A DNA stretch of 21,241 bases, taken from IMG/VR virus record IMGVR_UViG_3300048839_001866, positions 1 through 21,241 of that record. The stretch is one strand, 5' to 3'. This document shows positions 1,707-17,407 of the stretch, piece by piece. The stretch is from a virus. The translations under genes were made by a program, and so were the position numbers. The notes under the pieces are model-generated. The model was not told the DNA's origin and did not search any database. It saw only the letters and a list, made by a program, of their open reading frames with translations. Positions within the stretch are counted from its first letter, which is position 1, and each line of letters opens with the position of its first letter.

Positions 1707-3425
1707 ATGCATCCTCGGACGAAAGGGCCGGTGCGGGCGGTTATCTACGCCCGGTATAGTTCCGACCTACAAAGATCAGCTTCGATCGACGACCAGACGC
1801 GTCTTTGTCGCCAGTACATCGAGAGGCAGGGCTGGCAACTGACCCAGGTCTATGCCGACCCGGAGATGACCGGGCGGACCGCGCATCGGCCGGAATATCA
1901 GAGGCTTTTGCGGGATGGGGAAGAGAGGCGCTTCGACATCGTCGTCACCGAGGCCGTTGACCGCCTGAGCCGGCGCTTGGCGGATCTGGCCGACATGTAC
2001 GACAACCTGCGCATCTCCGGGATCAAGATGGTCACGCCGGAGTTGGGCGAGTTGTCGGAGGTTCATATCGCGATCCTGGGCCTCGTCGCCCAGCTTTATT
2101 CCAGCCAGCTGGCCGAGAAGACCAGACGGGGCCAGGTCGGCCGGGCCGAAAAGGGCTTTATCCCCGGTGGTCTTGCGTATGGATACCGGGCCCTGCCGCC
2201 CAAAAAGGAGGGCAAGAAGATGGTGGCCGGGGAACGCGAGATTATCCCCGAGCAGGCGGAAATCGTGGCCCGGATTTTCCGGGAATACGCCGACGGCAAG
2301 AGCCCGGAAGCGATTGCGCGGGACCTCAATCGTGAGGGCATCCCGGGTCCCAGGGGCGGATCCTGGTACAACACGACCCTCCGCGGCCAGGGCCGGCGAA
2401 CCGCCGGGATGCTGCGCAATCCGATCTACGTCGGGCGAGCGGAGTACGGGCGCGCCAGCTATGTAACGCACCCCAAGTCTGGCAAGCGGAAGGCCAGGCT
2501 GAATGACGGAGATGACGTCGTCGCCATTGACGCGCCGCACCTTCGGATCGTCGATGAAATTCTGTGGGCCCGGGTGCAGCGGCGGCTCCAGGAGGTCAAT
2601 GCCAAGGCGACTGACACGCGAAGGGCCGTGGCCTCGGATCGCCCCGGAACCGACATCGATTTGAACGCCACGCACCGGCCGCAATATCTTCTGTCTGGGC
2701 TGATGCGGTGTTCCGTCTGTGGCGCGAAATACACGATGATCGGCAAGGACCGGTACGGCTGCGCAAACCGGGGGCGGGGGACCGGCATGTGCACCAACAG
2801 CAAGACCATCATCCGCCAGACGGTCGAGGATCGGGTGCTGGCGGCCTTGCAAAGCCGCCTCCTGACGCCGGAGAACGTCGACCACTTCGTCAAGACGGTG
2901 ACCAAGGAGACCGAGAAGCGTCGGGACGCGGCGGCGAAGGACGAAAGGAGCCTCCGGAAGGCGCTTGCGGCCGCCAAGCAGGCGATCGACCATATCATGG
3001 TGGAAATCGAGCAGGGACGCTCCTCTCTGGCGCTGTACGAAAGGCTGGCCTCGCGGGAAGCGGAGAAGGCCGGGATCGAAGGGCAGCTGGCCGACCTGGA
3101 GGCCAGGCCGCTGGAGATCGCCCTGCCGGAGAACCTGCCCGAGATTTTCGCCGGCAAGGTTGGCAACCTGGCCGAGGCCCTGAACGATCCCCAGGAGAAG
3201 GATGCGGCGATGACGATCCTGCGGGAATTGATCGACAAGGTGGTGATGATCCCGGACCCGGAAGCGCCGAACGGCATGGCGCTGGAGGTGCATGGGGCCC
3301 TGGCGGAGATGCTGGCGCTGGGCGAAGAAATGGGCCGAAAAGGCCGACGGCCCGCTGGTTTGGCGGGCCGTCAAGCTTCGGTGGTTGCGGGGGCAGGATT
3401 TGAACCTGCGGCCTTCAGGTTATGA
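1707..3425 (+). CDS. Large serine recombinase (site-specific integrase), 572 aa
   Basis: This enzyme would integrate and excise the left element by the serine-recombinase mechanism. The resolvase domain opens with AVIYARYSSDLQ, with S18 the likely nucleophile, followed by SIDDQ, a DRLSRR segment (about 87-92) and the helix-rich region typical of the family. The recombinase domain follows (about 150-290). A zinc-ribbon-like segment with CSVC and GCANRGRGTGMC lies at about 335-362. A charged coiled-coil-like stretch follows (about 390-470). The start at ATG 1707 has a strong GGAGGAAAG site. The length is typical of large serine integrases. Its last residues, GAGFEPAAFRL, are encoded by the antisense of the tRNA 3' fragment at 3382-3425, and the TGA stop lies opposite the anticodon loop. 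Confidence 0.93.
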   Translation: MHPRTKGPVRAVIYARYSSDLQRSASIDDQTRLCRQYIERQGWQLTQVYADPEMTGRTAHRPEYQRLLRDGEERRFDIVVTEAVDRLSRRLADLADMYDNLRISGIKMVTPELGELSEVHIAILGLVAQLYSSQLAEKTRRGQVGRAEKGFIPGGLAYGYRALPPKKEGKKMVAGEREIIPEQAEIVARIFREYADGKSPEAIARDLNREGIPGPRGGSWYNTTLRGQGRRTAGMLRNPIYVGRAEYGRASYVTHPKSGKRKARLNDGDDVVAIDAPHLRIVDEILWARVQRRLQEVNAKATDTRRAVASDRPGTDIDLNATHRPQYLLSGLMRCSVCGAKYTMIGKDRYGCANRGRGTGMCTNSKTIIRQTVEDRVLAALQSRLLTPENVDHFVKTVTKETEKRRDAAAKDERSLRKALAAAKQAIDHIMVEIEQGRSSLALYERLASREAEKAGIEGQLADLEARPLEIALPENLPEIFAGKVGNLAEALNDPQEKDAAMTILRELIDKVVMIPDPEAPNGMALEVHGALAEMLALGEEMGRKGRRPAGLAGRQASVVAGAGFEPAAFRL

Positions 3426-6178: not shown

Positions 6179-6504
6179 TGCCCCATCGCGACTCCCGCCT
6201 CACCCCCGACGACCATGTCGCCATTGGCGCCAGCATCAAGGTGGCCATGGACGAAATCCATATCGTGGCCCGTATTGCCCCCCTGGCCAGCACCGTTCAG
6301 CAGGACGCGGTTGCTGCCATGGCCAGTCTGGAGCGCCTGCGCATCACCCTGGACAACCTGCTGTTCCAGCACATCCATGACGACATGGACCCGCGCCAGA
6401 TCCGGGACATGGTCTATTGCCACGAGGCCCGTCTGTACCGCCTCTGTGACGGCAGTGCGGAAAACAAGCGAGATGTTTTTGCCCATTGGGAATTGGAGGG
6501 TTGA
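6178..6504 (+). CDS. Hypothetical small helical protein, 108 aa
   Basis: I do not recognise the family. The sequence is mostly helical (IGASIKVAMDEIHIVARIAPLA, DAVAAMASLERLRITLDNLLFQHIHDDMD) and ends ARLYRLC...DVFAHWELEG. It has no membrane segment or metal-binding cluster. The start is fixed by the TGATG overlap with the upstream stop and by AGGAGG at 6166-6171. It ends two bases before the primase start, and GGAGG within its last codons (6495-6499) serves as the primase ribosome site. Its position suggests a role in replication or its control. Confidence 0.65.
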   Translation: MPHRDSRLTPDDHVAIGASIKVAMDEIHIVARIAPLASTVQQDAVAAMASLERLRITLDNLLFQHIHDDMDPRQIRDMVYCHEARLYRLCDGSAENKRDVFAHWELEG

Positions 6505-6506
6505 CC

Positions 6507-9095
6507 ATGGAGACCGCCCTCCCCTCCACCACCCTGGTCGAACTGCGCCGCACCCTGCGGCGCAACGGCTACCTGCCGGTGCCGATTTCCGGCCCCCACC
6601 TGCCCATCAAGGCCGCCGGCAAGCGGCCCCTGATGCGCGGCTGGGAGACTGCCTGCGCCGTGGCCGACGACGCCGAGATCGAACGCTGGGCCAAGAAGCA
6701 GCCCGAATGCACCAACACCGGCCTGCTGTGCGGCACCGTCGTCGGCATCGACATCGACGTGCCGCTGGACGAACCGGCGGCCGAGATCGAGCGCCTCGCC
6801 CGCGACCTGCTGGGCGACACGCCACTGAAGCGCATCGGCCGCGCGCCCAAGCTGTTGCTGGTGGCGCGGGCGGACACGCCCTTCGACAAGATCCAGACGC
6901 CGGAACTGGTACTGCCCGATGGCACCGTGGTCCGTGTCGAGATCCTGGCCACCGGCCAGCAGTTCGTCGGCTTCGGCATCCACCCCGACACCAAGGGCGA
7001 ATACCTCTGGCCCGACCGCTCGCCGCTGGAGGTGCCCGCCGCCGATCTGCCGGTGGTGACTGCCGAACAGTGCGCCACCTTCGTCACCCAGGCGGAAACC
7101 CTCCTGCGCGGTGTCGGCGGCCAGACGCGGGCCGAGATCAAGGGGGCCGAGCGGGCGGGCCGCAAGGCGGCGGGACTCTCCTCCAACTCCCAGGATATGC
7201 CCGACCGCGACCTGATCGCCTCGGCCCTCGATCATATCCCCAACGACGACCTACCCTACGACGAATGGATCAAGGTCGGCTTCGCCCTTTATGCCGGTCT
7301 CGGCCCCGATGGATGCGGCCTGTGGGAGGCTTGGTCGGCGCAATCCTCCAAGAACGATCCGGGTGCGACCATCAGCAAGTGGCCCAGCTTCGCGTCGGGC
7401 CGCAGCATTTCCGTCCGCACCCTGTTCTGGGAGGCCAAGAAGAACGGCTGGGAACGCCCCAAGCCCGCCAGGAAGCGTGCCGACCGCCCCAGCCCCGCCG
7501 AAGGCATGAACGCATCTTCGGGTCGCCCCACCATCCGCATCACGGCCGGCGATCTGCCCCGCATCGTCGGCGAAGGCGAACGGGCCATGATCTCCGCCAA
7601 CCTCCCCTTCTACCAGCGCGGCAGCATGGTGGTGCGCCCGACGGCCACCACCATCCGCATCACCGGGGGACGCAAGCTCACGGCCCCCCGCCTGATCACC
7701 GTCACCCGCCACCACATCGCCGAGGCCATGACCTTCGCCGCCCATTGGGAACGCTTCGACGCCCGCGCCGAGGACTGGGTGGCCACCGACTGCCCCCTGC
7801 GCATCGCCGACACTTATCTGGCCCGAGACGGCTTGTGGCACCTGCCGGTGCTGACCGGCATCATCAATTGTCCCACCCTGCGCCCCGACGGAACCCTACT
7901 CGACCAGCCCGGCTACGATGCCGCCACCGGCCTGCTGTACGATCCGCAAGGCGCGACCTTTCCGCAGGTCCCCACCGGGACCGACCGCCATCAGGCCATG
8001 GCGGCGCTGGGCTATCTGAAGCATCTGATCGCCACCTTCCCCTTCGTCTCCGACGCCGACCGCTCGGTGGCCCTGTCGGCCATGCTCACCGCCGCCATCC
8101 GCCGTTCCCTGGCCTCGGCCCCGCTGCACGGCTTCAACGCCCCCACCGCCGGATCGGGCAAATCGCTGCTGGTGGACATCGCCAGCATGATCGTCTCGGG
8201 CCGCCCGGCCTCGGTGATCGCCCAGGGCAAGACCGAGGAGGAAATGGAAAAGCGCCTAGGCGCCGCCCTGATCGCGGGTGATCCGCTGATCTCCATCGAC
8301 AACTGCGAGACCGGCCTGGGCGGCGAACTGCTCTGCCAAGTGCTGACCCAGCCCATGCTCAAGGTCCGCCTGCTGGGCAAGTCCATCAACGTCGAGGTGC
8401 CCAGCACGGCGGCCCTGTTCGCCACCGGCAACAACCTGACCATGGTTGGCGACATGACCCGCCGGGCGCTCCGCTGCACCCTGGATGCCGGGGTCGAGCG
8501 CCCGGAACTGCGCAAGTTCGATCACGATCCCCTGGCCCTGATCGCAGCCAACCGGGGCGACTATCTGGCGGCGGCGCTGACCATCCTGCTCGCCTTCCAC
8601 AACGTCGGCCGACCCCGGCAGACCACGCTCCTCGGCTCCTTCGCCGAATGGTCGGGCTGGGTGCGCGACGCAGTGATCTGGCTGGGCGAGGCCGATCCGT
8701 GCGCCACCATGGAACAGGTGCGCGGCGCCGATCCCAAGCTGGAGGCCCTGACCGCCGTGGTCGAGCAGTGGCACGCCCATGTCGGCTCCCGCCGCGTCTC
8801 GGTCAAGGAGGTGATCGACATCGCCACCGACCAGCACACCGCCCTGTACGGTCGCGGCGAATTCATGCGACCCGACTTCCGCGAGGCGCTGCTGACCGTG
8901 GCCGGCGATGGCGGCGCCGTCAGCGGCAAGCGCCTGGGCAAGTGGCTGTCGGCCAATCAGGGCCGTGTCGTCAACGGCATGCGCATCCTCGCCGACGGAC
9001 AACACGCCGGCATCATCCGGTGGCGTTTGTGGGAGCCGCAGACGAAAGCGGCGGAAAACAGCCACTTCGCACCGGACCACGCCCCAGCGGCCTGA
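6507..9095 (+). CDS. Replication protein: PrimPol domain, PriCT domain and P-loop ATPase, 862 aa
   Basis: This is a multi-domain primase-helicase-like protein that would start phage DNA replication. The N-terminal part (about 10-200) is a bifunctional primase/polymerase domain: TGLLCGTVVGIDIDV gives the DxD pair D82/D84, and FVGFGIHPDT supplies the conserved His. A PriCT-2-type helical domain follows (about 230-315, LIASALDHIPNDDLPYDEWIKVGFAL...). The C-terminal half holds a P-loop ATPase with Walker A TAGSGKS (GSGKS at 549-553) and a probable Walker B ending LISIDNCE (about 593-600). ATG 6507 has GGAGG upstream. Its layout is like that of satellite and prophage primase-helicases such as P4 alpha, which bind iterated sites at their origin. 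The palindrome right after the gene is therefore noteworthy. Confidence 0.88.
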   Translation: METALPSTTLVELRRTLRRNGYLPVPISGPHLPIKAAGKRPLMRGWETACAVADDAEIERWAKKQPECTNTGLLCGTVVGIDIDVPLDEPAAEIERLARDLLGDTPLKRIGRAPKLLLVARADTPFDKIQTPELVLPDGTVVRVEILATGQQFVGFGIHPDTKGEYLWPDRSPLEVPAADLPVVTAEQCATFVTQAETLLRGVGGQTRAEIKGAERAGRKAAGLSSNSQDMPDRDLIASALDHIPNDDLPYDEWIKVGFALYAGLGPDGCGLWEAWSAQSSKNDPGATISKWPSFASGRSISVRTLFWEAKKNGWERPKPARKRADRPSPAEGMNASSGRPTIRITAGDLPRIVGEGERAMISANLPFYQRGSMVVRPTATTIRITGGRKLTAPRLITVTRHHIAEAMTFAAHWERFDARAEDWVATDCPLRIADTYLARDGLWHLPVLTGIINCPTLRPDGTLLDQPGYDAATGLLYDPQGATFPQVPTGTDRHQAMAALGYLKHLIATFPFVSDADRSVALSAMLTAAIRRSLASAPLHGFNAPTAGSGKSLLVDIASMIVSGRPASVIAQGKTEEEMEKRLGAALIAGDPLISIDNCETGLGGELLCQVLTQPMLKVRLLGKSINVEVPSTAALFATGNNLTMVGDMTRRALRCTLDAGVERPELRKFDHDPLALIAANRGDYLAAALTILLAFHNVGRPRQTTLLGSFAEWSGWVRDAVIWLGEADPCATMEQVRGADPKLEALTAVVEQWHAHVGSRRVSVKEVIDIATDQHTALYGRGEFMRPDFREALLTVAGDGGAVSGKRLGKWLSANQGRVVNGMRILADGQHAGIIRWRLWEPQTKAAENSHFAPDHAPAA

Positions 9096-9101
9096 GTCTT
9101 G

Positions 9102-9273
9102 TTGGTGGGTTTGATCGGTTTGGTGGGTGTCTGCCAATACCCCGCAGGAAAGTGCCAGAACGCTTTCATTCCCTTGAGAGAAGGGAAAATAAATTCAGAA
9201 GGAATGAAATATGAATCTGACACTTTATAGGAAATGGCTGGCAGGAACCCACCAAACCACTCAAACCCACCAA
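9102..9273. repeat. 172-bp imperfect palindrome with four TTGGTGGGT iterons (candidate replication origin)
   Basis: Outer arms 9102-9128 and 9247-9273 are inverted repeats matching at 25 of 27 positions. Further arms lie inside: CTGCCA (9131-9136)/TGGCAG (9239-9244), a 10-nt pair at 9149-9158/9217-9226 with one mismatch, and TTTCATTCC (9164-9172)/GGAATGAAA (9201-9209). A 7-bp apical hairpin TTCCCTT/AAGGGAA (9169-9187) lies near the centre. The outer three arm pairs share the centre 9187/9188. Each outer arm carries TTGGTGGGT twice. It starts seven bases after the primase stop. The interior is relatively AT-rich. It could be an origin or a foldback/MITE-like element. Confidence 0.7.
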
Positions 9274-9449
9274 GGGCGTCTTTGGAACCATTACCAATCG
9301 CTCCCAATGAACTGCCCACGCAACCCTGGTAGACTGCTCCCTGGTCACGAGAGGCACAGCCTCCCAGAGCCTGGAAGGCGCGGTTCCTCCTGGGCCTTTC
9401 CCTATGCGGGGAGCCTCAGCGCACGACCTTGCCAGCCTGGGGCCGTACC
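9274..9449. other. Non-coding region before the small terminase (candidate cos/packaging region)
   Basis: No gene is supported in these 176 bp. Short dyads are present, for example GAGGC (9351-9355)/GCCTC (9359-9363) and GGAA/TTCC around GGCGCGG near 9372-9386, along with repeated GCCTC words. In lambda-like phages with a Nu1/GpA-type terminase, cos lies immediately upstream of the small terminase gene, which is exactly this position. The cohesive-end sequence itself cannot be recognised by eye. Confidence 0.3.
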
Positions 9450-9956: not shown

Positions 9957-11799
9957 CAGCGCCCAGGTGGTGGTGGATCGGGCGTGGCGTCGAGGCATCC
10001 GGCCCGAGCCGCCGATCCCGGTGTCCGAATGGGCCGACCGCCACCGGGTGCTGCCGCCGACCTCGGCCGAGCCGGGCCGTTGGCGCACCAGCCGCACGCC
10101 CTATCTCAAGGACGTGATGGATGCGCTCTCCACCGCCAGCCCCTTCGAGCGGGTGGTGCTGATGAAGGGTGCCCAGACCGGCGGCACCGAGGCCGGCCTC
10201 AACTGGCTGGGCTACATCATCCACAACGCCCCCGGCATCACCATGCTGGTGCAGCCGTCCCTCGACATGGTCCGCCGCAACACCACCGTGCGCATCGATC
10301 CGCTGATCGAGACCACCCCGACCCTGCGCGAGCTGGTGTCGCCCGCCCGCTCGCGCGACGCCGGCAACAGCCTGTTCCGCAAGTCCTTCCCCGGCGGCCA
10401 ACTGGTAATGACCGGGGCCAATTCCGCCGCCGGCCTGCGCTCCACCCCGGTGCGCTATCTGTTCCTCGACGAGGTGGACGGCTATCCCGGCGATGCCGAT
10501 GGCGAGGGCGATCCGGTCGATCTCGCCATCCAGCGCACCGCCACCTTCCGGGGCCGGCGCCGAATCTATATGGTGTCGACGCCGACGCTGAAGGGCCATT
10601 CCCGCATCGAGGCCGCGTTCCTCGATTCGGACCAACGGTATTTCCATGTCCCCTGCCTGCATTGCGGCGAGATGGCCGCGATCACCTGGGCGCGCATCCG
10701 CTGGCCCGAAGGGCGCCGCGATCAGGCGTTCCTTGTCTGCGAATCATGCGGCGGCATCCACCACGAGCACGACAAGCCCGCCTTGCTGGCGGCGGGAGAA
10801 TGGCGGCCCACGGCCACCGGCGATGGGCGCACCGCCGGCTTCCACCTGTCGGCTCTCTATTCCCCCTGGGAAACCTGGGCCGAGATCGCCCAGGAACATG
10901 GCCGCGTCAAATCCGACCCGCCCCGATTGCAGGTGTGGGTCAACACCAAGCTGGGCGAGTCCTGGGAGGACCAGGCCGGCGACACAGTGCCCGCCGATCC
11001 GCTGATGGCCCGGCGCGAGGATTGGGGCGACCGCCTGCCCGAGGCTGCTGCCATGCTGACGGCGGGCGTCGATGTCCAGGGCGACCGGCTGGAGGTGCAG
11101 GTGATCGGCTGGGGCGCCGACGAGGAAGCCTGGGTGGTCGATTATCGCGTGCTGTGGGGCGATCCGTCCGGCCCGCGCGTCTGGGCCGATCTCGATTCTT
11201 ACCTCGCCACCACCTTCGCCCACCCCAAATCCGTCGCCGACATGCCCATCCGCGCCGCCTGCATCGACACCGGCGGCCACCACACCAAGGCGGCCTACGA
11301 ATTCTGCCGCACCCGGCTGGCGCGGCGCATCTGGGCGATCAAGGGCCGTGGCGGCGCCGCCATCCCGGTGTGGCCCCGCCGCCCCACCCGCGTGCGCGGC
11401 AAGGTGCCGCTGTTCATCGTCGGCGTCGATGCGGTCAAGGACGCCCTCTACGCCCGGCTGCGCCTGACCGAGCCCGGCCCCGGCGCCGTCCATTTCCCGC
11501 GCCGGATGGACGCCGACTATTTCCGCCAGCTCACCGCCGAGCGGGTGGTCACCCGGTTCGACCGGGGCCGCCCGATCCGCTCGTGGCAGCCGAAGCGGGA
11601 CGGCGAGCGCAACGAGGCGCTGGACACCTTCGTCTACGCCACCGCCGCACTGCATGGTCTGGTCGCCATGGGGCTGCGGCTGAACGACGAGGCGGTGGCG
11701 ATAGCGGTGCTGCCAACGCGGGGAGCGCCGGTCACGGCGAACTCGGCTTCCACCGCCCGCCCGGCACTGGCGCCAATCCGCTCGCGGTGGATGGGGTAA
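9946..11799 (+). CDS. Phage terminase large subunit, GpA family, 617 aa
   Basis: This is the DNA-packaging motor: an ATPase that pumps phage DNA into proheads and a nuclease that cuts it. The N-terminal region WADRHRVLPPTSAEPGRWRTSRTPYLKDVMDAL (about 25-60) is characteristic of GpA terminases. The ATPase shows a Walker-A-like segment VLMKGAQTGGTEAG (about 70-83) and Walker B YLFLDEVDG (about 170-178). A CxxC pair (CLHCG, CESCGG) lies at about 235-270. The nuclease domain opens with LTAGVDVQGDRLEVQVIGWG (about 370-390). The length suits the family. The C-terminus ends in the usual basic IRSRWMG tail, so the protein appears complete. In related phages the portal usually follows closely, but here a 5.7-kb insert intervenes. 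Confidence 0.93.
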   Translation: MQGDSAQVVVDRAWRRGIRPEPPIPVSEWADRHRVLPPTSAEPGRWRTSRTPYLKDVMDALSTASPFERVVLMKGAQTGGTEAGLNWLGYIIHNAPGITMLVQPSLDMVRRNTTVRIDPLIETTPTLRELVSPARSRDAGNSLFRKSFPGGQLVMTGANSAAGLRSTPVRYLFLDEVDGYPGDADGEGDPVDLAIQRTATFRGRRRIYMVSTPTLKGHSRIEAAFLDSDQRYFHVPCLHCGEMAAITWARIRWPEGRRDQAFLVCESCGGIHHEHDKPALLAAGEWRPTATGDGRTAGFHLSALYSPWETWAEIAQEHGRVKSDPPRLQVWVNTKLGESWEDQAGDTVPADPLMARREDWGDRLPEAAAMLTAGVDVQGDRLEVQVIGWGADEEAWVVDYRVLWGDPSGPRVWADLDSYLATTFAHPKSVADMPIRAACIDTGGHHTKAAYEFCRTRLARRIWAIKGRGGAAIPVWPRRPTRVRGKVPLFIVGVDAVKDALYARLRLTEPGPGAVHFPRRMDADYFRQLTAERVVTRFDRGRPIRSWQPKRDGERNEALDTFVYATAALHGLVAMGLRLNDEAVAIAVLPTRGAPVTANSASTARPALAPIRSRWMG

Positions 11800-11814
11800 T
11801 AGACTGGATCGTCA

Positions 11815-11843
11815 TTGGCAATCCTTGCCAACCGCGTTATGCT
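11815..11843 (+). promoter_or_regulatory. Promoter and overlapping operator of the toxin-antitoxin operon
   Basis: A -35 element TTGGCA (11815-11820) and a -10 element TATGCT (11838-11843) are separated by exactly 17 bp, matching consensus at 5/6 and 4/6 positions. TTGGCAA (11815-11821) and TTGCCAA (11825-11831) form a perfect 7-bp inverted repeat around TCC, covering the -35 and half the spacer. This fits autorepression by the ribbon-helix-helix antitoxin. The antitoxin ATG is 24 bp downstream of the -10, with GGGAG before it. Confidence 0.72.
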
Positions 11844-11867
11844 TCCGGGATCGAAGGGAGATTCACC

Positions 11868-12131
11868 ATGCCCACGCGAAACGTCAATCTGACCGACGAC
11901 CAGGACGCCTTCGTCGAAAGAATGGTCAAGGCCGGCAAATACCAGAATGCCAGCGAGGCCATGCGCGACGCCGTGCGCGGATTGCAGCAGCGCTGGAAAG
12001 AGGATGAACTGAAGCTCACGGTGCTACGGGAACAGATCAAGGCAGGTGCTGAGGCCCTGGATCGCGGCGACTTCACCGAGGTGGATGACGCCGACCTCGA
12101 CGCGACTCTCGACAAGCTGGCATCCAATTAG
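11868..12131 (+). CDS. parD: ParD-family antitoxin (ribbon-helix-helix), 87 aa
   Basis: The antitoxin of a type II toxin-antitoxin pair. The N-terminal RNVNLTDDQDAFVERMVKAGKYQNASEAMRDAVRGLQQR (about 4-42) is the ribbon-helix-helix DNA-binding fold, with the typical GxYxNASExxRDAxR signature of ParD proteins. The C-terminal part (LTVLREQIKAGAEALDRGDFTEVDDADLDATLDKL) is the acidic, flexible toxin-binding tail. It is expected to neutralise the downstream toxin and repress its own promoter through the palindrome at 11815-11831. The start is fixed by GAAGGGAG shortly upstream. The toxin gene begins 12 bp after its stop. Confidence 0.9.
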   Translation: MPTRNVNLTDDQDAFVERMVKAGKYQNASEAMRDAVRGLQQRWKEDELKLTVLREQIKAGAEALDRGDFTEVDDADLDATLDKLASN

Positions 12132-12143
12132 GCGCGGCCCTTG

Positions 12144-12509
12144 ATGGCACGTTATCGTCTTTCCGGCCCCGCGAAGGCGGATATCTCCTCCATCCTGCGC
12201 ACGAGCGAGACGCAACATGGCACGGAAGCGCGCATCCGCTATCGCGGACTGCTGACGGCGGCGATGCGCCGCATCGCAGCGGCCCCACAAGGGCGATTGA
12301 CCTTGGAGCGGGGCGACCTTCTCGCCGGATTGCGCAGCCTGCATATCCGCCACAGCCGCAACGAGAGCCGCGAGGCACCGGTCGGCGACCCCGTGCATGT
12401 CATCTTCTACCGCGTCGTCGAGCCCGAACTCGTCGAGATCGTGCGCGTGCTGCATGACCGGATGGAACCAAGTCGGCATATGTCGAAAGAAGCGGAAGAC
12501 GACGCATGA
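12144..12509 (+). CDS. parE: ParE/RelE-superfamily toxin, 121 aa
   Basis: The toxin of the pair. It opens MARYRLSGPAKADISSILRTSETQHG, as in ParE toxins, and continues with a helical region containing RYRGLLTAAMRRIAAAPQ. It ends with GLRSLHIRHSR, then VHVIFYRVVEPELVEIVRVLHDRMEPSRHM, the beta-strand core and C-terminal RVLHxRM signature of the ParE subgroup. ParE toxins generally act on DNA gyrase, but the target of this one is not shown by sequence. It is of normal length or slightly long, with about ten extra residues after the usual end. Its stop overlaps the next start (ATGA), coupling it to the methyltransferase-like genes. Confidence 0.88.
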   Translation: MARYRLSGPAKADISSILRTSETQHGTEARIRYRGLLTAAMRRIAAAPQGRLTLERGDLLAGLRSLHIRHSRNESREAPVGDPVHVIFYRVVEPELVEIVRVLHDRMEPSRHMSKEAEDDA

Positions 12510-13207
12510 AAAAACCATCCCCCACGAACTCGCGGGCTGAACAGCCATCCGCCGATGAACTGATCAAGTCGAAGAAGCGCGTCGCCGACCACGGCGAGGT
12601 GTTCACGCCCGCCTGGCTGGTGGACGCCATGCTAACCCTCGTCAAGGACGAGGCCGACAGGATCGACTCGCGCTTTCTGGAGCCCGCCTGTGGCAGCGGA
12701 AATTTCCTGATCCGGGTTCTTCAACGGAAGCTGGCCGCCGTCGAAGTGAAGTTCGGCAAGTCCGAGTTCGAAAGGCGCCACTACGCCCTTCTCGCGTTGA
12801 TGTGCGCCTACGGAATCGAGTTGCTGGCCGACAACATCGCCGAGTGCAGGGCGAACATGCTCGAGGTTCTGGCCGAGTACCTCGACATCGGCGAGGCCGA
12901 CGAATTTTACCACGCAGCCTCGTTCGTCCTTTCGCGGAACCTCGTCCATGGTGACGCCCTGACGATGCGAACGCAGGACGGGGCGCCGATCACGTTTGCC
13001 GAATGGGCCTATATCGGGAAGGGCAAGTTCCAGCGCCGCGATTTCCGCCTGGACGTTCTCACAGGGTCCTCGGCCTTTAGCGCGGAGGGTTCGCTGTTCG
13101 CGCATCTGGGCAAGCACGAGATCTTCACTCCTACCAAGACCTACCCGCCGATGACGGTGCGTGACCTCGCGTCTGCCGATGGCGGGACACCGAAGGAGGC
13201 CGCATGA
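12506..13207 (+). CDS. N6-adenine methyltransferase-like SAM-binding subunit without NPPY, 233 aa
   Basis: This looks like the front half of a gamma-type adenine methyltransferase. Visible in order are a motif-X-like GEVFTPAWLV (30-39), motif I FLEPACGSGNFL (57-68), motif II YGIELLADNIAECRANML (102-119) and motif III LVHGDAL (146-152). The catalytic (D/N)PP(Y/F) that should follow is absent. In its place are APITFAEWAYIGKGKFQRRDFRLDVL (160-185) and a C-terminus ending in TKTYPPMTVRDLA. The protein is not obviously frameshifted: it ends in a clean ATGA overlap with the next gene, which carries NPPY. It may bind SAM as one subunit of a split enzyme, or be a degenerate regulatory subunit. The overlap with the toxin stop points to one transcript. 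Confidence 0.75.
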   Translation: MKKPSPTNSRAEQPSADELIKSKKRVADHGEVFTPAWLVDAMLTLVKDEADRIDSRFLEPACGSGNFLIRVLQRKLAAVEVKFGKSEFERRHYALLALMCAYGIELLADNIAECRANMLEVLAEYLDIGEADEFYHAASFVLSRNLVHGDALTMRTQDGAPITFAEWAYIGKGKFQRRDFRLDVLTGSSAFSAEGSLFAHLGKHEIFTPTKTYPPMTVRDLASADGGTPKEAA

Positions 13208-14866
13208 GCATAGAGACTGGCTTCACCCAGGCTAGCTTTGCCTTGCGCAGCCGCAATCCGGACGTGTTGACCTGCATCGCGAACCTGTCGAACGACGAGG
13301 TCTTCACGCCACCCGAATTCGCCAACCGCATGCTCGACACGCTGGCCGAGGCGTGGGCGACCGGCCATGACGGCGCGAATATCTGGACCGACAAGACGGT
13401 GACGTTCCTCGATCCCTTCACCAAATCGGGCGTGTTCCTGCGGGAGATCACCAGCCGCCTGACCGCGGGGCTGGCGGCCGAAATTCCCCATCTTCGGGAA
13501 CGCGTTGATCATATCTTGACCAAGCAGGTCTTCGGCATCGGCATCACCCAGTTGACCAGCCTGCTGGCGCGGCGCAGCCTCTATTGCTCAAAACACGCGA
13601 ATGGCGAACATTCGATTGCCATGAGTTTTGAGAGTGACGCCGGCAACATTTGGTTCGAGCGCACCGAACATACGTGGATTGACGGCAAATGCAAGTATTG
13701 CGGCGCCAGCCAAACATCGCTCGACCGCGGCGAGGGGTTCGAAACCCATGCTTACTCATTTATTCATACCGACAACATCAAGACTCGGATCGCCGAGCTA
13801 TTTGGAGGCAACATGCATTTCGACGTGATCATTGGCAACCCGCCATATCAGTTAGAGACTGATGGACACGGCAAGCAAGCGCGCCCCATTTATCACCAGT
13901 TCGTCCAACAGGCTAAAGCTCTCGAACCGCGCTATCTCTCGATGATTATTCCCGCGCGCTGGTTTTCTGGCGGCATGGGATTAGATGAGTTCCGCGAGAG
14001 TATGCTTTCCGACAACCGATTGCGCGAAATCAATGACTATCTTACCGCTTCGGATGTATTCCCTGGTGTTGGACTGAAGGGAGGTGTGTGCTACTTCCTT
14101 TGGGATAGGGACAACCCTGGGGAGTGCCGCGTCACCACGCGGTTCAAGGATTGGCCCGCCTCCACCGCCATACGTCCGTTACTTGAAGAAGGCGCTGATG
14201 TTTTCATCCGCTTCAATGAAGGGCTGTCGATTCTCAAGAAGGTCGTAGCTGTTGAGACTGGGAAATCCCAGTCCCTTTCGCTCCCGGAAAGCAAACGATT
14301 CGACCGACTGGTCAGTTCAATCGGCGCCTTTGGCCTTGAAAGTACATTCAAGGGTAAAGAAAAGAAATCTGCCGATGATGACCTGAAGGTCTATCGAAAT
14401 GGCGGCATTGGATTTATCGCAAGATCAAAGGTGTTGAAAGAACGAAACGTTTTCGATAACTGGAAAATATTCATTGGCCGTGCCGCCCCAGGCACTGGAA
14501 ACAAAGATACATACCCCCACCGCATCATCAGCACCCCCTTCATCGGTGAGCCGGGCAGCATTTCATCGTGGACGTATATGTATATCGGTCCGTTCAATTC
14601 GAAGAACGAAGCCGAAAGTGCTTTGTCGTATCTAACTTGCAGGCTGACGCGTTTTTTGATTCTGCTGCACAAGCCCTCGCAGGACACGACGCGCAAGGTC
14701 TATACATTCGTTCCCAAGCAAGATTGGGAAAATAAATGGACAGATGCGGACCTTTATAAAAAATACGCCCTTACCGCTGAGGAAATAGCGTTCATTGAAA
14801 AAATCGTTCGCCCGATGGATTTGACCAGCGACTTGTTCGGTGACGTCTCCGTGGATGATGGCGACG

Positions 14867-14874
<8 letters not shown>
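13204..14874 (+). CDS. Eco57I-type adenine methyltransferase subunit with NPPY and degenerate motif I, 556 aa
   Basis: Resembles Eco57I-like restriction-modification methylases. A motif-X-like DEVFTPPEFANRML lies at 31-44. Motif I is degenerate: FLDPFTKSGVFL (68-79) replaces the usual DPACGSGxFL. Catalytic motif IV is intact, FDVIIGNPPYQ (206-216). Between them is a probable zinc-binding insert with C128 and CKYC (163-166). Downstream, YLSMIIPARWFSGGMGLDEFRESML and FPGVGLKGGVCYFLWDR are typical of this family. The rest (about 300-530) would hold the target-recognition domain, ending in an acidic tail. It overlaps the upstream gene by 4 bp and the helicase gene by 8 bp. Much of this gene is visibly AT-richer than its neighbours. 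It probably supplies the catalytic motif to a complex with the preceding protein. Confidence 0.82.

Positions 14875-17407
<2,533 letters not shown>

Follow-up and report, generated by a model that had tools for sequence, protein, structure and literature searches.

The segment at positions 9102-9273 of the window (the whole stretch of DNA analysed here, a virus contig of 21,241 bp) is very probably a phage replication origin, which would be recognised and opened by the helicase module encoded immediately upstream. The case for this interpretation is built on features that can be observed directly: the position of the segment, its symmetry, its 9-bp period, the constant spacing of its parts, their conservation, and the association of the whole with a particular type of helicase.

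In the origin model that we infer from these features, winged-helix-like domains at the C-terminus of the helicase would bind three 9-bp iterons in each arm of a palindrome, and the opposed orientation of the arms would set a pair of helicase rings face to face across a GC-poor centre. The inner boxes of the form (AA)(C/G)TGTCA, lying at a constant distance, may mark the site of duplex opening or of the first primer; primers would be laid at the melted centre, and two forks would depart from it in opposite directions. The general kind of origin is already known from the SaPI/PICI origins and from the stem-loop of the plasmid pRN1, and the fact that these precedent systems use this very position supports the origin reading. 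What appears to be new, judging from sequence comparisons, is the family itself, its inner boxes, and the evidence for inverted 9-bp iterons in BPP-1-type phages and in the stems of pRN1, pHEN7 and pRN2. The parts of the locus in the window are as follows.

6486-9095, plus strand: gene for a protein with Prim-Pol, PriCT_2 and a D5/SF3-type helicase, the proposed initiator (phrog_29234; start codon provisional)
8733-9032, plus strand: C-terminal helix-helix-helix-strand-strand domain in the AlphaFold2 model, winged-helix-like, candidate iteron reader
9102-9110, 9111-9119 and 9120-9128, plus strand: left array of three 9-bp iterons, the 9-bp period being kept in relatives
9150-9159, plus strand: left inner box AAGTGCCAGA, a degenerate form of AACTGTCAG by comparison with the TGTCA boxes of relatives
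9158-9217, no strand: GC-poor centre, candidate melting region (50-base windows with 32-40% GC, the surroundings having ~65-75%)
9216-9225, minus strand: right inner box, which reads AAGTGTCAGA and has TATA on its outer side
9247-9255, 9256-9264 and 9265-9273, minus strand: right array of three 9-bp iterons, inverted relative to the left one

The palindrome and the adjacent helicase

The palindrome is real and beyond chance, with an ungapped score of 25 against a maximum of 16.5 and a mean of 12.8 when the window is dinucleotide-shuffled 60 times. It begins 7 bp past the stop of the helicase gene (9095) and ends 178 bp past it. As stated in the original prediction, the outer arms (9102-9128 and 9247-9273) are identical at 25 of 27 positions and share their axis, at 9187.5, with an inner pair (AAGTGCCAGA, 9150-9159, and TCTGACACTT, 9216-9225); a repeat search even lengthens the outer arms to 35 nt (9102-9136 and 9239-9273, 89%). 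Two further details of that prediction hold as well: the 9-bp pair TTTCATTCC (9164-9172) and GGAATGAAA (9201-9209) is one base off the axis, and the middle is AT-richer, the GC content falling to 32% in 50-base windows over the centre of a region that averages ~68%. The 7-bp hairpin described as apical, TTCCCTT-GAGAG-AAGGGAA (9169-9187), is in fact centred on 9178, ~9 bp off the palindrome axis, and overlaps an inner arm, so it is not coaxial.

The word TTGGTGGGT is present in exactly four copies in the 21 kb window, all of them inside the palindrome, where 0.14 would be expected. These four exact copies had been noticed before, but the organisation into two words per arm had not been read correctly: each arm consists of three tandem 9-mers. 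The left arm reads TTGGTGGGT TTGATCGGT TTGGTGGGT and the right arm, in minus-strand orientation, TTGGTGGGT TTGAGTGGT TTGGTGGGT, with a degenerate middle word in both, which gives six iterons altogether. The inner boxes of the two arms follow the form AAGTG(T/C)CA, with an exact TGTCA in the right box only and a deviating left one.

The protein encoded next to the palindrome matches the Pfam domains Prim-Pol (1.6e-10) and PriCT_2 (2.9e-16). Its helicase family is without a Pfam domain, and the sole description covering the helicase end to end is phrog_29234 (E=0), annotated as 'unknown function'. A sequence search of solved structures with the helicase returned no match. An AlphaFold2 model of the helicase module (525 residues, mean pLDDT 89.5) has Foldseek fold matches to the ASFV PrimPol, MPXV E5 (D5), the NrS-1 CTR and PriRep1 with dsDNA (7pds), which we take to be the SaPI5 protein. 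The predicted fold would place the module with the D5/SF3 PrimPol-helicases, including the SaPI5 PriRep1. The order of the modelled elements in its C-terminal domain (helices 406-421, 429-436, 452-462 and 470-479 and strands 488-496 and 499-505, in module numbering) suggests a winged helix.

The small and large terminase subunits are encoded after the palindrome, and the window also codes for portal and capsid. Just before the gene for the small subunit, at 9380-9445, there is a block that is highly conserved in relatives, more so than the palindrome, with the pattern GCGGTTCCT..TGGGCC..TATG.GGGG..GC.CAGCGCA..CCAGC; we regard it as a candidate cos site. Right after terL (11883-12509) follow a ParD-like antitoxin (frame 9984-12131) and a 122-aa protein (phrog_18611), probably a toxin-antitoxin pair in which the toxin role is assigned by position. 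The interval between terminase and portal (12506-17407) contains an adenine-methyltransferase-like fragment, an Eco57I-type methyltransferase and a ResIII helicase, which PADLOC matches to parts of type IIG/II restriction-modification, and looks like defence cargo within the packaging operon. A large serine recombinase with remote similarity to the SCCmec CcrB, encoded at 1707-3425, is likely the phage integrase.

Conservation among relatives of the helicase

The palindrome, used as a nucleotide query against phages and plasmids, yielded chance-level matches only, and the exact outer arm had no match in IMG/VR. The iterons thus change too fast for DNA searches, and relatives were sought via the protein, with helicase homologues drawn from IMG/VR, GTDB genomes and plasmids. 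In a palindrome census of 109 loci (numbered with L below; 0.90 Mb in total, ungapped score at least 16), 85 palindromes were located 30-300 bp past the stop codon of the helicase gene; another 7 were situated elsewhere and include one displaced layout of the origin type (L055). The layout is carried directly after the helicase gene by ~90 relatives, comprising phages, prophages and plasmids, and this comparison of sequences lends strong support to the predicted origin, in which iterated sites would be bound by the neighbouring primase-helicase.

The 9-bp period played no part in choosing the palindromes, and it is evident from 40 non-redundant arm pairs, whose lag-9 self-similarity is 0.59 compared with 0.32 after shuffling (z = 23.8); lag 10 ranks second, and a Psychrobacter plasmid has a 10-bp unit. 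The iteron words vary by lineage (GTGGGTTTG, GAAGGAGAT, GCAGGATTT, GGTGGCTTC, GTGGGTTTA, GGGGGTTTA and others) around the loose consensus G-N-R-G-G-N-(T/A)-T-N, with the G-rich strand pointing to the centre in the listed arms. Of the 40 non-redundant relatives, 28 have an exact TGTCA in each arm, mostly at equal distances. In either arm the typical inner box, AACTGTCA, mostly lies ~48-51 nt from where the iteron block begins, and many members from Rhodobacterales have an extra TGTCA ~12 nt further inward in the left arm. The stretch between iterons and box is kept in length, its sequence being largely non-complementary.

Agreement between the arms reaches 0.79 in register, compared with ~0.59 when they are slid by one iteron, a difference that is favoured by the selection of palindromes. 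In several lineages, deviations from the local word are common to both arms (GATCAGGG in L034; GTTGGTTTG and GAGGGTTTG in L016), which fits either pairing or copying between the arms during replication. The mismatches between arms show no bias towards G-U compatibility (22 vs 28), hence no sign of selection for single-strand pairing. Iteron similarity tracks helicase similarity (rho ~0.55); for the iterons and the C-terminal domain, with the helicase core held constant in a partial Mantel test, the partial correlation is 0.14 (p = 0.065).

One locus deserves a separate remark. The deviant GATCAGGG of L034 (5578 onward) is present in both arms, and in the close relatives L080 and L084 it is present in the right arm only; this pattern looks like the result of one arm having been copied to the other by template switching.

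What the layout travels with

Comparison of gene neighbourhoods indicates that the layout tracks the helicase module and neither the primase domain nor the terminase. It occurs with helicases fused to Prim-Pol (the window, L119, L120) or to Toprim (L107, L115), as well as with a helicase alone, the primase domain being absent (the 548-aa protein of L118, and L110). The inverted arrays also follow the helicase homologue in small plasmids, namely pMNOD06 (12.6 kb) and pA32H2 (6.5 kb, with a 10-bp period), for which this homologue is likely the initiator.

In some loci the layout is displaced. It lies beyond an ORF in L055 (+1093) and L105 (+544); in L212 and L211 it is 6.6-10 kb distant from the helicase gene and has the opposite orientation to it, an arrangement that suits an origin. 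The clade of L020, L021 and L054 seemed to be an exception without the layout, until a displaced palindrome was found on the same contig for L020 and L021. No such layout was found in L061 and L122, distant homologues with ~31% identity, or in L022, L043 and L057/L112, where the helicase ends are truncated or replaced. The sequences of L042 and L044 stop at the gene, and L024, L050, L052, L075 and L107-L109 are under the score cut, with arrays visible by eye.

L020, L021, L054, L211 and L212 represent an integrative element that combines this helicase with a HepT/MNT pair, a TOTE-type AEP primase-helicase and tyrosine integrases (the TOTE-type primase and HepT being found in L212 and the tyrosine integrases in L211); no terminase was found near the element in these five loci.

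This distribution bears on the alternatives to an origin. Instead of loading the helicase, the iterons might be read by the Prim-Pol domain as sites of primer synthesis, an idea suggested by the NrS-1 PrimPol, whose recognition sequences in the template are TTTGGTTA and GTG(G) (PMC8718748); the window iteron TTTGGTGGG resembles both. We find it improbable, as near-identical iterons (GTGGGTTTA) follow the primase-less helicase of L118 and the Toprim-fused ones of L107 and L115, and the iterons GAAGGAGAT and GCAGGATTT are without GTG. The iterons may nevertheless have a secondary role in priming.

Inverted iterons serve also as operators and partition sites, and the segment might accordingly be an operator or a partition/incompatibility site to which the replication protein, or some other protein of the phage, binds, the origin being elsewhere. 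We give this possibility slightly less credence again: the segment is located after the gene and not before it, the window has no further iteron copies ahead of the gene, and the precedents put origins at exactly this position.

A structured RNA (a terminator, an attenuator or an mRNA-stabilising 3' hairpin between early and packaging genes), named as an alternative in the original prediction, would agree with the gene-boundary site and with the strong predicted fold of the segment, whose z-score is about -8.9 for RNA and DNA alike. It is nonetheless very unlikely to be the explanation. A scan for terminators and promoters finds nothing at the site, there is no Rfam match, a hairpin does not need tandem 9-mers, and the arm mismatches show the lack of G-U bias described above. 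Moreover, the displaced and inverted copies can be as far as 10 kb away from the gene, which rules out a role at the 3' end of the helicase mRNA in L211 and L212.

The remaining two readings have a negligible probability. A foldback or MITE-like insertion, the other alternative proposed earlier, would explain the long imperfect terminal inverted repeats, but a check for further copies revealed a single one in the record and none dispersed in the genomes searched, where matches are situated after helicase genes or on a helicase-bearing contig; the outer arm is without an exact counterpart in IMG/VR, and relatives keep both position and geometry. Similarly, the segment could be taken for a part of the cos/packaging signal before the gene for the small terminase subunit, since terminase comes next in most close relatives, yet the layout persists in elements with a distant terminase or none at all (L100, L107, L118 and the small plasmids), and a separate, much better conserved block adjoins terS.

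Comparison with known origins

The origin reading of the segment finds close parallels in published bacterial systems. PICI origins are located immediately 3' of rep, with an AT-rich region between two sets of iterons, an organisation that, according to PMC6092414, no other known bacterial replicon has, and the rep-ori module of the EcCICFT073 PICI replicates a plasmid (PMC6092414). In SCCmec, Cch2 uses its C-terminal domain to bind repeats that lie past its own gene (PMC7581432). As in SaPIbov1, SaPI5 and EcCICFT073, with their Rep or Pri-Rep plus ori, the window segment is directly 3' of the initiator-helicase gene and has its AT-rich region flanked by two sets of iterons, and the modelled helicase appears to share a related D5/SF3 fold with PriRep1 of SaPI5 (7pds). 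Unlike the PICIs, the window family is carried by complete phages and by plasmids instead of satellites, and has conserved inner boxes and a helicase without a Pfam domain. Its 9-bp arrays are strictly inverted and form one palindrome, which may also set it apart from the PICIs. As the window codes for terminase subunits, portal and capsid, we have not filed it as a PICI.

Phage P4 has a second cis site, crr. No second, crr-like iteron array is present in the 21 kb record, itself a fragment, all iterons being in this segment. The description of the system as 'P4-like' in the original prediction holds for the iterated-site origin beside a primase-helicase, which in P4 binds the sites via a winged-helix domain (PMC4234260) and in the window putatively does the same. 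It fails for the type of primase: the P4 alpha protein has a Toprim-type primase (PMC4234260), whereas the window protein has Prim-Pol and PriCT_2, Toprim fusions occurring only in other family members. Given the different primase and the lack of a second array, we do not count the window as a P4 member.

A stem-loop after orf904 is needed for replication of pRN1 (PMC4234260), although the work on this plasmid could not directly show origin firing. Berkner et al. described the pRN plasmids as without recognisable iterons, proposed recognition of the stem-loop, and left the binding motif of ORF904 open (PMC4234260). Like the window, pRN1 combines Prim-Pol, an SF3 helicase and a C-terminal winged helix (in the window protein suggested by the structural model) with a long stem-loop soon after the gene (~100 bp, within ~170 bp downstream); unlike it, pRN1 is archaeal and has one perfect 21-nt stem with two repeats per arm. 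The stem arms of pRN1, pRN2 and pHEN7 (L215, L216 and L217, respectively) each consist of two 9-bp repeats: the pRN1 stem TTATGTCCATAGTGTCCAACT reads TGTCCAtag TGTCCAact, that of pHEN7 reads GTCACCACT GTCACAACT, and pRN2 has GGACnG at 9-bp spacing. When five plasmids are pooled, none of 5000 shuffles reaches the observed value at lag 9 (z = 4.9), the signal being weak in pDL10 and pSSVx.

The phages of the BPP-1/BIP-1 type, also cited by Berkner et al., who drew their stem-loop (PMC4234260), share with the window the combination of Prim-Pol, PriCT_2 and a helicase module. They have inverted pairs of 9-bp iterons downstream (GCGACGTTT, TTTGCCTCG, AGTGGCGTT; lag-9 z = 15.8). They differ from the window in having two iterons per arm (TTTGCCTCG), the inner sequence AACTTTCTCAT, and a helicase of the D5_N type that has no BLAST similarity to that of the window, which implies that the origin design is either very old or convergent.

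We see an even chance that one origin design, in which inverted 9-bp iteron arrays enclose a variable centre and lie just past the 3' end of the initiator gene, is common to replicons with AEP/D5-SF3 primase-helicases, including pRN1, the BPP-1-type phages and the alphaproteobacterial phage and plasmid family described here. If so, the pRN1 'stem-loop' would act as an iteron origin in double-stranded form, with two helicase rings facing each other, and not as a recognised hairpin, which may answer the question of pRN iterons and of the ORF904 binding motif left by PMC4234260. Origins of many AEP/SF3 phages and plasmids could then be located by sequence alone, and such origins could be used for alphaproteobacterial vectors. 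A large phage family whose helicase (phrog_29234) is unassigned in PHROGs is in any case given a candidate origin, and the helicase-iteron pairs, with several clearly different words, make up a natural set from which a recognition code could be worked out.

In BPP-1 itself (4608-4711 of L124; 26607-26710 of NC_005357), the inverted TTTGCCTCG pair is located ~0.5 kb past the primase, and the published stem-loop of BIP-1 lies where the gene ends, with the iteron palindrome ~0.5 kb further on. Relatives of BPP-1 (L125-L195) have inverted iteron pairs with other words.
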